From contig DATHGB010000012.1 of assembly GCA_035317825.1 (NCBI GenBank), forward strand, positions 1-47,908: 47,908 nt of DNA, read 5' to 3'. The notes beneath the pieces are model-generated. The model was not told the origin of the DNA. It saw only the letters and a program-made list of their open reading frames with translations, and did not search any database. The position numbers were made by a program, and so were the translations under genes. Shown here in pieces: positions 35,002-42,343 of the stretch (within the stretch, counting starts at the first letter, position 1; every line of letters begins with the position of its first letter). Origin of the DNA: Candidatus Saccharimonadales bacterium. Lineage in GTDB: Bacteria > Patescibacteriota > Saccharimonadia > Saccharimonadales > Saccharimonadaceae.

Positions 35002-36711
35002 TTACGCAAGTCTACTCCTACGGGTTAGTCCTACTGCCATTGTTGCGAGAATACTAAGGAATAGAACTGTCAATAAAATCGCAAGGAATGGATTCATACC
35101 ACGCGTAGCTGATGTGGTTTTAGGTACTTGGTTTTGTACAGAATTATCCGTAGTTGTTATTCCAAGTACTTCGGGAGCAGCTTGGGTATCCCCGCTGCTG
35201 TCATCTAGTATCGGAGTCTCCGCTGAACTCTGCTGGTTAGATGAAGTTTTGGGCACGAATCCTAAGCTAAATGGTGGTGAAGCCTCCTGTCCGGCATCGG
35301 TTGGTACAGGAGGAGCTGATGAAGCTGGTTGATCACCGCTGGCCGTATCGACACCAAAGCTTCCGTCCCAATGACCAAATACGTTGATGAACAATATGCC
35401 AAACCAGTCAGAAAGGCCGAAGCTACTCATATTAACGTTTAGGATGTTAGCCGAAGCCGTTGCATTGCCACTCGACGCGTTGCCGGCACTTGTATTGCCC
35501 GTCACGCCAGCATTACCCGAGTGTGCCGTAACATCAATATTATTCGTAATCTGACTGTTGTTGTTTGCCGTTATGTCTTGGCCGCCATTACTATCCGTTA
35601 CGCCGCTACCTAGCATCGCCGCCGTCGCACCAGGGGCGTCCACGATAATCCCCACCCAAGTTCCAAGGACATTCACGAATACCAGTAGACTATTGCTTGC
35701 AACTACTTGGTGACCTGAAAGATTAAGGATAGTTAGGTTAGTTGTTGCCGTCCCGGTTGTTGCTTGCCCTGCAGACGTGTTATTGGTAACTTCAGCCGAT
35801 CCACTCGTCGCGCTCAGTTGTACGTTGTTTACGATAGACTGAGTGTCATTCGACACCACAGAAGCGGATGCATCTTGTGCATTACTAGCAAGTAGTTGAG
35901 GAATAAATTCTGGTGATATAAGTATGTCGCCGTTCAGATTACCGTAAATATTAATCGTTCCAATAAATGATTTATTTGCTGCAATAATTGAATTGATAAG
36001 GTTTATAACATTTGCAACTGCGTTTGCACTACCTGTTGTTGCGTTCCCGGCACTGGTATTGCGGTTAACGTTAGCATCGCCGCTACCAGCATCGACCGAA
36101 ACGTTATTTGTTATAGCCGCGGAATTATTAACCGTAGTTGTCGCATCAGCATTTGATTGCTGCGCCGATAAATCGCCAATCGCTGACGATAAAGTAATAT
36201 CACCCGTTACGTTTCCGTAGATGTCGGATGTAAAATGAGCAACGCCGACCGTGTCACCCCCTACGGTAGAATGTACCGTGCTCACAGTTGTTGTCGTAGC
36301 AGCTGCATTACCACTTGTTGCGTTCCCGGCGCTGGCATTCGCTGAAACACCCGCGTCCCCTGACTGCGCTACCGAAGACGTATCGTTTTGAATATTCACA
36401 CCGGCATTCGATGTACCCGTTGAGGTATCGGTTGTCGATGTCGAAGGTTGTTCATTAGTCGTCTCGGGATCTGAAGGTACAATTTGCGTATTTTCTGGAG
36501 GTGGTGCTGGTGTAGATTTAGCCTTGTACGTACCTGATTGGCTATCATATTCCCATGTGGTCGTATTCCAGTGACCCGTTATCGGATCATAGGTATATGT
36601 TGGACTCGGCGCAGCATCAAGTGCCATTGCCGTCAAAGGATATCCGCCAGCTATCACTACCACGAGCGCATAAGATATACATACTCGCATGATACGTTTA
36701 AACTTTTGCAT
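35002..36711 (-). CDS. Large exported repeat protein, solenoid-like, membrane-anchored
   Basis: A 569-residue surface protein. A signal peptide (about 1-32) is followed by a Pro/Thr/Ser-rich region and four imperfect repeats. Each repeat has SG(D/N/S)AxVxxN(T/A)SAGxA(T/S)(T/S)G, then an Asn/Ala/Val stretch and a hydrophobic phrase such as NIYGNLNGDI or FINVFGHWDGSF. The pattern suggests a beta-solenoid or curli-like fibre. After a Ser/Thr/Pro linker it ends with VPKTT, a hydrophobic helix and RRSR, like a sorting signal of an unusual kind. The start at 36711 is chosen for the AGGAGG just upstream; a longer frame exists but has no support. The neighbouring gene at 36828 shares the repeat. Confidence 0.65.
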   Translation of the reverse strand: MQKFKRIMRVCISYALVVVIAGGYPLTAMALDAAPSPTYTYDPITGHWNTTTWEYDSQSGTYKAKSTPAPPPENTQIVPSDPETTNEQPSTSTTDTSTGTSNAGVNIQNDTSSVAQSGDAGVSANASAGNATSGNAAATTTTVSTVHSTVGGDTVGVAHFTSDIYGNVTGDITLSSAIGDLSAQQSNADATTTVNNSAAITNNVSVDAGSGDANVNRNTSAGNATTGSANAVANVINLINSIIAANKSFIGTINIYGNLNGDILISPEFIPQLLASNAQDASASVVSNDTQSIVNNVQLSATSGSAEVTNNTSAGQATTGTATTNLTILNLSGHQVVASNSLLVFVNVLGTWVGIIVDAPGATAAMLGSGVTDSNGGQDITANNNSQITNNIDVTAHSGNAGVTGNTSAGNASSGNATASANILNVNMSSFGLSDWFGILFINVFGHWDGSFGVDTASGDQPASSAPPVPTDAGQEASPPFSLGFVPKTSSNQQSSAETPILDDSSGDTQAAPEVLGITTTDNSVQNQVPKTTSATRGMNPFLAILLTVLFLSILATMAVGLTRRSRLA

Positions 36712-36827
36712 GGCGGCCTCCTTTTTTAACCAAATAATTTCATCCGTGGACGGGGAGAATATGTAGTCGTATCCTCCCCGAAGCTCAAACACCCTGGAAA
36801 ATTATCATGTAGACAAATAACCAAGAG

Positions 36828-37415
36828 TTAGTTTTTAAGGTTCACCGTCACACTTGTTGAGTTAGTGTTCGATACATTGCCAGATGTGGCTGAGCCACCA
36901 GTCGTGTTATCCTCAACCTCTGCTTCACCAGACGTAGCCGTTTGGCTTGTAGAGCTTGAGATATTGAAGTTATTGTTGTTTTCAACCTTCAGTTTATTGA
37001 CCGTCTTAGACTTGACGACATTCGTAGAATCAGGACCGGTTTGCGTAATAGATCCTGAGTCACTGCTGCTGTTCCCGCCACTACCCAAAGCTCCAGTTGT
37101 GGCAGAATTATCGACTGTTAAACCAACGCTCATGGCATTTGCCTGCGCTACCGTACCGCTCGTAGCGTCTCCACCAGTCGTATTGCCTTCCGATGAAGCT
37201 TCACCAGAAGATCCATTCTGAGACGTTGAGCTGTGAAGATTTAGGTTATTATTATTTTTAACCTTTGCCTTATTGATCGTTTTACTCTTAACGGCATTAT
37301 AAGAGTCGGGGCCGGTATTCGTAATTGAACCCGTTGCGGCTGATGCGAAACCACTAAGACCAACTACAAGACCCAGTGATAATAACGTGGCACCTACTGA
37401 TTTTTTGATTTTCAT
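36828..37415 (-). CDS. Exported repeat protein sharing the motif of its neighbour
   Basis: A 195-residue secreted protein. Residues 1-26 are a signal peptide (GFASAA). The mature part is two copies of an 80-residue unit: (T/Q)TGPDS(Y/T)N(A/V)VKSKT(I/V)NK(A/L)KV(K/E)NNNN, then SSTSQ, SGEAxxExNTTGGxATSG. The SGEA...NTTGG.ATSG part is the same motif as SGDA...NTSAGNATTG in the larger neighbour, so the two may form one structure. No anchor is seen at the C-terminus, so it is probably free or polymerised. Family unknown to me; no enzyme motif. Confidence 0.7.
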   Translation of the reverse strand: MKIKKSVGATLLSLGLVVGLSGFASAATGSITNTGPDSYNAVKSKTINKAKVKNNNNLNLHSSTSQNGSSGEASSEGNTTGGDATSGTVAQANAMSVGLTVDNSATTGALGSGGNSSSDSGSITQTGPDSTNVVKSKTVNKLKVENNNNFNISSSTSQTATSGEAEVEDNTTGGSATSGNVSNTNSTSVTVNLKN

Positions 37416-40282: not shown

Positions 40283-40951
40283 CTATAGCAGCCTGACGTT
40301 TTGCGAAGCCCATTTAAGCGCGTCAACTGCTTGCCGGCGTGCTACGAGCGAATGCTTCGGCGGTCGCTCACCATGCCACCATTGACTCCAAAAAGGGTCG
40401 TTCGGGTTGAGACATTCCAGGTTGTCCTGATGCCTTAGCGTCCCATCGATGAAACTAGTGTTTCGCTCGATGTAAACCAGGTCATAGCCAGACTTTTGCA
40501 GCGCCTTCAGGCTGGCGACATTCCCCTGGTACACCGCTGACATGATTCTGTGCAGCCCCAGATGCTGGAATGCATACCAGGTACGGGCTTTGTGGATACT
40601 GCTCGCGATCCCCTTACCCCAGTACTCGTGGCGGAAGATCATTGAACCGCTGGTTGCTTGGTGGATATGGTTTTTGGTTATGTCAAATAGCGTCGTGTCA
40701 CCAATAAGGATACGTTCGTCACTCTCGACGACATATATCCCCCACGTTAGGCTCTCTTTCTCTTCCCTGATACGCTCAAACCATTCCTGTTCATCTTCCA
40801 GTACGGGTGCAGAGCGGCGGCTGAGATAGCGGGTAACGCTTGCCTGTTGCATGCCGGGGTTGATAAACTCCGGCATGTTGTCTTTTGTAAGCGGCGCAAG
40901 TTCGACCTTTAAATCGCCTACTTGTAGCTGCATGATTGGTCCAAATGCCAT
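40283..40951 (-). CDS. GNAT family acetyltransferase, RimJ/RimL-like
   Basis: A 222-residue acetyltransferase of the RimJ/RimL type, which act on N-terminal amines of proteins or on antibiotics and similar small molecules. Visible parts are VELAPLTKDNMPEFINPG, WGIYVVESDERILIGDTTLFDI, the acetyl-CoA loop RHEYWGKGIASSIHKA (here Y-x-G-K-G-I-A), HRIMSAVYQGNVASLKALQKSGY and a longer C-terminal tail (about 165-222). Two in-frame ATGs exist; the second (40951) is eight bases from AGGAGG and is preferred. The gene is monocistronic, with a 170-base leader containing a short ORF and hairpins, and a terminator right after the stop. Confidence 0.85.
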   Translation of the reverse strand: MAFGPIMQLQVGDLKVELAPLTKDNMPEFINPGMQQASVTRYLSRRSAPVLEDEQEWFERIREEKESLTWGIYVVESDERILIGDTTLFDITKNHIHQATSGSMIFRHEYWGKGIASSIHKARTWYAFQHLGLHRIMSAVYQGNVASLKALQKSGYDLVYIERNTSFIDGTLRHQDNLECLNPNDPFWSQWWHGERPPKHSLVARRQAVDALKWASQNVRLL

Positions 40952-40977
40952 GATCATGACCTCCTTTTAGTTAATCG

Positions 40978-41041
40978 GTCTCTTTTGAGACCGGATGAGC
41001 CTCCGCCTGGGAAATGAAAAACCTCCGAGACCGGAGGCTTA
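40978..41041 (-). promoter_or_regulatory. Possible attenuator in the GNAT leader
   Basis: On the minus strand the leader holds a terminator-like hairpin CCTCCG-GTCT-CGGAGG followed by TTTTT, then GGCGGAGGC, which can pair with the same GCCTCCG, and then GGTCTC-TTTT-GAGACC just before the ribosome-binding site. GGTCTC and CGGAGG each occur twice, so two alternative folds are possible. Confidence 0.5.
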
Positions 41042-41064
41042 TCTAGTGTCAAAAATAGTATGTG

Positions 41065-41124
41065 TTAAGAGAAAAGATAAGCCATGCCAAAAGAAATGCC
41101 GCCGAACGTGCCGTCCTTATTCAT
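41065..41124 (-). CDS. Candidate 19-residue leader peptide upstream of the GNAT gene
   Basis: ATG at 41124 to TAA at 41065 encodes MNKDGTFGGISFGMAYLFS. It lies about 25 bases before the terminator-like hairpin, the position expected of a leader peptide in an attenuated gene. It contains Phe and Gly more often than chance (3 Phe, 4 Gly in 19). No strong ribosome site precedes it. Because it is so short it may be accidental. Confidence 0.35.
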   Translation of the reverse strand: MNKDGTFGGISFGMAYLFS

Positions 41125-41197
41125 TTCAGATTGGTATGATTTACAAGTGATCATAAGTTATTTATAACACATGATGTTTATGTTAGCAAACAAAATA

Positions 41198-41227
41198 TTG
41201 TTTATTCGTCGTTTTTCACGCTATACT
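41198..41227 (+). promoter_or_regulatory. Promoter of the glycosidase-like gene
   Basis: TTGTTT (41198-41203), 18 nt, TATACT (41222-41227). Nine bases lie between the box and ATG 41237. Confidence 0.55.
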
Positions 41228-41236
41228 GACCATAAG

Positions 41237-42343
41237 ATGAAATTCTTTATTCGAAATATCGGCCGTATTGTTGGAACGCTGCGGGCAGAGAAACGACAAC
41301 TTGTTAACCGCTATTTTACCAAGATTCCACGGCTAGAAGGTAGCGCTGCCGAAATTTGCCGTCAGATCGTTGAAAAACTATGGGAAGGTGATTTTTATCG
41401 TACAAGCCTTGGCCATTTCGATTTTTTCTGGATGCGCGACTTTGGAACGGTGTCCCAGTCACTTGTGAATACTGGCTACAAAAAACATACCCTACATACG
41501 CTTAGATGGGCACTGCTGCACTACCGTCGAGCTGGTAGGGTTACGACATGTATCGATAAAGCCGGTAACTGTTTTGAAGCCCCAGGCCATGCCGTCGATT
41601 CGCTACCTTGGCTACTACACAGTCTCGTTGTAAGTAACTATGATCTAAACATGTCTGAGCGGAAGTTTCTCGCGGGCGAGCTAGACCGTTACTGCAAAAA
41701 ATACCTTGATACGGCTGGGTATGTACGGCCAATAAAGTTCGCCGAGATGCGCGATGCGGTTATATATGACCGAAGCGCCTATGCTGTCACGCTAATCGCC
41801 CGCATGGCATATTGCGTTGAGGTGCTCCAGCTTCAAGGCTTTCCTTATGAGCTACTGCAATACCAAGAAGAATTACTGAGTCGTTATTGGAACGGGCAAT
41901 ATTTTAATGCAGACCGAAGGACAAACGCGTTCAGCGCGGAATGCGCGCTGTTCCCTTTCTTCCTAGGGGTCATAGACGACGAAGCAATGGCAGGGGTGAC
42001 ATTCGACTACATTAACCAAGAAAAACTGAACGAACCCTTCCCGCTTATATACACAAAACAACCTAAAGCCTTTCAATACCATTGGTGGATGACCAAGCCT
42101 TTTATGCCAAACTACCAAGAGGAGACGCTATGGAGCTGGCACGGTGTGTTTTATTTGCATCTTCTAAAACGCTACGGCCGGCCAGAATACAAGCAGCAGC
42201 TCGAGAAATTCTCAAAAGGTATGATTGAAAAACATGGCTCTTTCCCCGAGATGCTGAACAAAGACGGCAGTTGGTACTACGCACCGATCTACAAGGGTGA
42301 CCCTGGCATGGTGTGGGCCGCGCTATATCTTGAGTTAGCGTGA
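41237..42343 (+). CDS. Six-hairpin glycosidase-like protein
   Basis: A 368-residue protein with an (alpha/alpha)6-barrel pattern, as in glucoamylases, debranching enzymes and neutral invertases. HFDFFWMRDFGTVSQSL has the W-M-R-D often found at the substrate cleft; later segments are GHAVDSLPWLL, DRSAYAVTLIARMAY, YFNADRRTNAFSAECALFP and ETLWSWHGVFYLHLLKRYG. The ending SWYYAPIYKGDPGMVWAALYLELA fits the last helix. No signal peptide, so it would act in the cytoplasm, perhaps on stored or imported oligosaccharides. The ATG at 41237 is preferred over ATGs at 41171 and nearby, because the -10 box lies between them. Exact family and substrate are unclear. Confidence 0.65.
   Translation: MKFFIRNIGRIVGTLRAEKRQLVNRYFTKIPRLEGSAAEICRQIVEKLWEGDFYRTSLGHFDFFWMRDFGTVSQSLVNTGYKKHTLHTLRWALLHYRRAGRVTTCIDKAGNCFEAPGHAVDSLPWLLHSLVVSNYDLNMSERKFLAGELDRYCKKYLDTAGYVRPIKFAEMRDAVIYDRSAYAVTLIARMAYCVEVLQLQGFPYELLQYQEELLSRYWNGQYFNADRRTNAFSAECALFPFFLGVIDDEAMAGVTFDYINQEKLNEPFPLIYTKQPKAFQYHWWMTKPFMPNYQEETLWSWHGVFYLHLLKRYGRPEYKQQLEKFSKGMIEKHGSFPEMLNKDGSWYYAPIYKGDPGMVWAALYLELA

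Follow-up and report, generated by a model that had tools for sequence, protein, structure and literature searches.

The window, i.e., the whole stretch of 47,908 nucleotides that was analysed, is contig 12 of a Saccharibacteria-type genome with a total of 1.12 Mb. On its minus strand a short ORF, a terminator-like hairpin with a T run, a second hairpin, a Shine-Dalgarno (SD) sequence and the start of a GNAT acetyltransferase gene were all present, as the preliminary description had stated. The competing GGCGGAGGC that it named was found as well, overlapping positions 40994–41006. The full leader element reaches about 41189, beyond the span given earlier (Table 1).

Table 1. Features of the leader and of the acetyltransferase gene in the window, in the order of transcription.
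Feature	Position	Strand	Basis or role
-35 element TTGCTA, leader promoter	41184..41189	-	TTG at -35 to -33 across 44 aligned leaders
-10 element TATAAA	41161..41166	-	6 nt 5' of the leader ATG
Leader ORF MITCKSYQSEMNKDGTFGGISFGMAYLFS, 29 codons + stop	41065..41154	-	Predicted leaderless, A of ATG = +1
Segment 0, TCATACCAA, codons 6-8	41131..41139	-	Pairs with 1'; covarying partner in most loci
Gly-Gly codons GGC GGC, codons 18-19	41098..41103	-	Candidate stall/control codons
Segment 1', TTGGCATGG	41082..41090	-	Pairing partner of segment 0
Segment 1, GGCTTATCT, A-Y-L codons	41075..41083	-	1:2 = antiterminator
Segment 2, AGATAAGCCTCCG	41032..41044	-	Common to antiterminator, terminator and 2:4 helix
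Intrinsic terminator, segments 2:3 + T5	41017..41040	-	Hairpin CCTCCG-GTCT-CGGAGG with TTTTT; found by terminator scan
Segment 4, CGGAGGCTCATC	40994..41005	-	Pairs with the whole of segment 2; covariation
Hairpin P5, CGGTCTC-AAAA-GAGACCG	40976..40993	-	Covariation
Shine-Dalgarno AAAAGGAGG of GNAT	40960..40968	-	Sequence; AAAGGAG in most homologues
GNAT acetyltransferase, RimJ/RimL/SpeG type	40283..40951	-	PF13302, E 4e-20

The AlphaFold model of the GNAT protein had a pLDDT of 93, and its best structural match was M. smegmatis RimJ (Z 21.7). Further matches were a lasso-peptide acetyltransferase, SpeG and RimL, and at a lower level AAC(6') enzymes and MccE. From these matches the predicted fold class is clear. 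The mechanical ORF begins at 40957, which was first taken as the start of the acetyltransferase; the start is probably the ATG two codons later, at 40951 (MAFGP...), which lies 8 nt after the SD and is the one used in nearly all homologues. The near relatives of this GNAT belong to Candidatus Saccharibacteria. A protein scan of genome contigs gave 5 GNAT loci, from Candidatus Saccharibacteria and Candidatus Microsaccharimonas, and the plasmid search showed only distant GNATs (25–34% identity) among the matches listed.

The promoter region was compared in 44 leaders aligned at the leader ATG. TTG at −35 to −33 was present in 70–80% of them, TG at −15/−14 in 82 and 59%, respectively, and TATAAT at −12 to −7 from the A of the ATG in 50–84% per position; a minority of leaders had the −10 element up to ~4 nt further upstream. 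With the A of the leader ATG as +1, the −35 and −10 positions match standard promoter coordinates. Judging from this alignment, the leader transcript apparently starts at the leader ATG or within a few nt of it, i.e., it is leaderless. The leader ORF comprised 24–55 codons and kept the same position in the 44 loci. It had been proposed to start at 41124, 30 nt downstream; since both the homologues and the promoter place the start at ATG 41154, the later start was rejected.

The GNAT homologue search covered several hundred genomes and gave some 29 close homologues. Upstream of 23 GNAT loci, window included, the attenuator plan was shared, with the ORF and with stems carrying compensatory changes, and the neighbouring genes differed. 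Six GNAT homologues had no such leader (L014, L017, L018, L020, L034, and L035). A search with a first covariance model of the leader gave further leaders in many genomes that lack this GNAT, and there the next gene was nearly always an MFS transporter of about 390–400 aa. A second model was used to scan the family, phylum, and order. Nearly all inspected new matches again preceded an MFS transporter, including matches in other families of the phylum, and in one genome of another family (G709) the leader match preceded a GNAT 34% identical to that of the window. The earlier idea of an attenuator with a leader peptide is supported by these results: leader ORF and stems are both conserved, and the same leader stands before MFS transporters elsewhere.

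One exception was L070 (genome G166, about 1450–2650 on the reverse complement), in which the leader is followed by an 81-aa ORF and then by what looks like an alanyl-tRNA editing protein, its match being to the C-terminal portion of PF01411 (class II alanyl-tRNA synthetase). The L070 leader is of the simple type, carries a terminator and has Gly-Gly as codons 18–19. Another match, L127 (37 bits, 90-aa ORF), was set aside as a likely false positive. The closest models to the MFS proteins were those of tetracycline or multidrug efflux, with scores far short of the curated cut-offs. The likeness of the layout to that of resistance genes, drawn in the preliminary description, gains weight because the recurring targets are RimJ/RimL-type GNATs and efflux-like MFS transporters.

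The segment 1 motif GGCTTATC forms the last sense codons of the leader ORF, and the stop codon ends a median of 10 nt beyond segment 1. The core of segment 2, written GATAAGCCTCCG / GATAAGCC, pairs with segment 1, 3, or 4. Three helices exclude one another: the anti-antiterminator 0:1, the antiterminator 1:2, and the terminator 2:3. At nearly all loci the latter two share segment 2. The 2:4 helix of ~10–17 bp is followed by P5 and then by the SD. Exclusive folds had been proposed from repeated blocks of the sequence. The conserved alternatives of segment 2 bear out this idea, but the GGTCTC repeat is incidental: as the terminator loop sequence varies among homologues, we rejected this repeat as a switch. 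The pairing of early leader codons with bases before and into segment 1 was absent from that proposal.

Helices 1:2, 2:4, and P5 covary. In helix 1:2, 93% of cells were paired and both sides had changed in 6/9 pairs (0/500 shuffles). For 2:4 and P5 together, 90% were paired and both-side changes were observed in 11/18 pairs (0/500 shuffles), divided into 8/12 pairs for 2:4 and 3/6 pairs for P5. Slid controls stayed far below the real 1:2 and 2:4/P5 scores. The 0:1 pairing gave p = 3e-13 in a combined test, a value uncorrected for relatedness. Against synonymous-codon randomisation of the ORF, the combined p was 9e-11 for 0:1 and 6e-6 for 1:2, likewise uncorrected for relatedness. The window leader RNA folded better than dinucleotide shuffles (z −3.57; terminated form, z −2.49), and the 0:1 protector helix was present in its folded structure. 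In the minimum free energy fold, segment 1 was also paired with the SD of the GNAT, which on inspection was unsupported in relatives.

The MAYL peptide was lost in L021 and L031, where the RNA pairing was kept at least in part, which indicates that the MAYL motif reflects the RNA. The overall conservation of the peptide was weak (pooled pN/pS 0.70). Two simple leaders, L012 and L013, had neither segment 4 nor P5; where present, these elements may tune read-through or translation. Just 5' of segment 2, a U-rich stretch AUUUUUGAnAC was conserved in most GNAT leaders (41046–41057 in the window, minus strand); it might serve as a pause site of RNA polymerase or as a protein site.

By inspection, about 35/44 leaders had a U-tract. 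It was missing in about 9/44, namely L006, L007, L111, and the MFS leaders L113–L115 and L117–L120 of one genus. Intrinsic termination is therefore not the universal output of the leader, and another output has to be assumed there, which may be translational. The leaders without U-tract retained segment 2 and usually the 2:3 hairpin. For the one genus we also asked, by inspection, whether part of segment 4 acts as an anti-SD; the idea was dropped because the complement to the SD was good only in L115 and L117.

A Gly codon was found in frame within codons 17–21 in 39/44 leaders. Shuffled peptides (2000 trials) gave a mean of 13.4 and a maximum of 24 leaders, and the other two frames gave 2 and 9 leaders; as the leaders are related, the p-values for the Gly codons are indicative only. 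In the seven held-out leaders, which lay outside the definition of the rule, the Gly codon was found at this position in 5. Codons 1–16 contained 9 Gly among 704 codons of the 44 leaders. The 40 anchoring Gly codons were 29 GGC, 10 GGT, and 1 GGA, compared with 58 GGC, 83 GGT, 31 GGA, and 25 GGG in six window genes (P = 2.6e-5 for the bias of the anchoring codons, again indicative). Tandem Gly codons were present in 15/40 anchored leaders, and most MFS leaders had a single Gly codon. The position of the Gly codon was constant relative to the leader start, not to segment 1. The conserved Gly at codons 17–21 is likely to be the stall site, and its constant distance to the start would fit a ribosome queue with the trailing ribosome over segment 0.

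Folding was computed for the nascent leader as far as the U-tract, with the ribosome footprint held unpaired; the resulting probabilities describe equilibrium, not co-transcriptional, folding. With no ribosome, 0:1 and the terminator formed (P(2:3).91). A ribosome at the stop codon gave a P(1:2) of 0 and a P(2:3) of.95 (42 leaders). When segment 0 was covered (codons 3–12), or with a pair of ribosomes at codons 18–19 and 8–9, P(1:2) rose to.37–.45 and P(2:3) was.57–.64; covering of segment 0 gave a P(2:3) of about.57 and a P(1:2) of.45. Covering segment 0 thus shifts the balance, but many loci retain the terminator, and P(1:2) exceeded P(2:3) in only about 20/42. In long leaders, one ribosome at codon 18 was not enough to free segment 1 (mean P(1:2).19); for this, segment 0 had to be masked as well. 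In the window leader, P(2:3) and P(1:2) were.96 and 0 with the ribosome at the stop codon, and.51 and.88 with the ribosome at codon 18, respectively.

We consider it highly probable that the element is a ribosome-controlled transcription attenuator on a leaderless transcript, induced by elongation stress. When translation of the leader runs through to the stop codon, segment 2 would pair with segment 3, as the ribosome at the stop covers segment 1, and the terminator would keep the GNAT off. When the leader is untranslated, segment 0 would pair with segment 1, and the terminator would form again. With segment 0 (codons about 5–12) occupied by a ribosome, or by ribosomes queuing behind a stalled one, the 1:2 helix would form, the terminator would be disrupted, and the GNAT would be made. 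This on state would be reached by a ribosome held at the Gly codon 17–21 together with a trailing ribosome on segment 0, some ten codons behind. In this way the GNAT, or the efflux-like MFS transporter in relatives, would be induced by elongation stress, and the inducing signal is probably a translation inhibitor or the loss of usable Gly-tRNA. The best reading, in our view, is an attenuator that controls resistance-type genes and perhaps senses stalls at Gly codons. A wider version, in which such leaders make up a phylum-wide Patescibacteria family reading stalls at a Gly ~19 codons from a leaderless start, is at present rather improbable.

Instead of a general or drug-specific block of elongation, the signal of the same attenuator might be the supply of glycyl-tRNA, with targets that serve amino-acid or host-nutrient stress and not drug resistance. 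Saccharibacteria rely on amino acids from their host, and this general dependence would suit such a sensor, as would the tandem Gly codons in 15/40 anchored leaders, the GGC or GGT anchoring codon in 39/40, and the L070 leader before the 81-aa ORF and the alanyl-tRNA-editing-like protein. Yet the single Gly of most MFS leaders is few for a starvation sensor, and amino-acid biosynthesis genes are absent among the targets. The nearest models of the MFS proteins, those of Tet or multidrug efflux, also speak for drugs, though the scores are far below the cut-offs. We regard glycyl-tRNA supply as a possible signal, but clearly less probable than the preferred reading.

The short ORF could also be incidental to an RNA switch that binds a ligand or a protein. 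The sequence conservation of segment 4, P5, and AUUUUUGAnAC, all unneeded in a trp-type attenuator, would be explained in this way. It would leave unexplained why the ORF, the position of its stop relative to segment 1, the promoter–ATG spacing, and the in-frame Gly are kept while the peptide and RNA sequences vary. L012 and L013 moreover do without segment 4 and P5, and Rfam 15 gave no relevant match for the window leader or five leader loci, which makes a switch of this kind unlikely.

A functional, possibly exported, double-glycine peptide is more improbable still. Many GNAT leaders have Gly-Gly ~19 residues from the start, which resembles double-glycine export signals; against this, the C-terminus of the peptide is set by the RNA pairing, which L021 retains although it has lost MAYL, the second Gly is missing in most MFS leaders, and pN/pS is 0.70. 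As terminator-like sites in the region were no commoner than chance (6 found, 4.6 expected), the case for an attenuator rests on comparison. An ordinary, unregulated terminator and promoter brought together by chance is contradicted by the conservation and covariation seen in dozens of genomes, and we do not consider it a serious explanation despite this near-chance rate.

The attenuator proposed here resembles several known systems. The trp and his leader attenuators of Proteobacteria have four segments, and both full translation and no translation lead to termination. Segments 0, 1, 2, and 3 correspond to segments 1, 2, 3, and 4 of the trp attenuator. Unlike the trp and his leaders, the present ones have no run of codons for a pathway product, and they show an additional segment 4 with P5 and a predicted leaderless start. 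In the leaders of Bacillus subtilis vmlR (PMC9226507) and streptococcal msrD, the uORF, anti-antiterminator, antiterminator, and terminator overlap in a like order, structure is likewise present near the SD, and the target is a resistance gene. The vmlR uORF has three codons and its own SD, whereas here the ORF has ~30 codons, is predicted to be leaderless, contains segment 1, and carries a Gly at ~19. The targets here are GNAT and MFS genes, and the likeness to vmlR and msrD is one of layout.

The mycobacterial leaderless poly-Cys attenuators (Canestrari et al. 2020), as described in PMC9031893, have a leaderless short ORF that controls the downstream gene via elongation speed, much as is predicted here. 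In that description they use runs of Cys codons, in contrast to the one or two Gly codons and the other targets found here, and none of the 44 leader peptides had Cys runs of the mycobacterial kind. The toiL uORF before topAI in E. coli (PMC12121999) senses several ribosome-targeting drugs, a role close to the one proposed here. It acts on translation with Rho-dependent termination, whereas most leaders here have an intrinsic terminator.

Against Rfam 15, the window gave only a tRNA at the gathering score, and five leader loci had no relevant match at E ≤ 1. The open-access literature on attenuation, leaderless messages, and noncoding RNA in Saccharibacteria contained nothing that describes this element. 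We thus found neither an Rfam 15 family nor an open-access paper that matches the conserved attenuator. Gene control in Patescibacteria is almost unknown (PMC11665869). The proposed switch is conserved and compact, probably senses translation, and stands before resistance-type genes in bacteria whose hosts produce antibiotics or are exposed to them. It would show that genes in reduced genomes can stay inducible by drugs or stress with no need of protein regulators. It would unite leaderless translation with trp-style attenuation, and it could supply a natural inducible expression module for organisms without one. As to the inducing signal, the Gly rule yields a specific prediction.

Two further observations concern other genes of the window. 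Divergent to the leader, a plus-strand ORF of 390 aa with no Pfam match has a mechanical start that overlaps the leader promoter (41171–41250, plus), and its true start is therefore probably a later ATG; in L040, L049, and L050 a homologue of this ORF lies on the opposite side of the GNAT. At 35002–37415 on the minus strand, two neighbouring secreted-looking proteins with repeated S/T/N/A/G-rich units resemble surface or appendage proteins.
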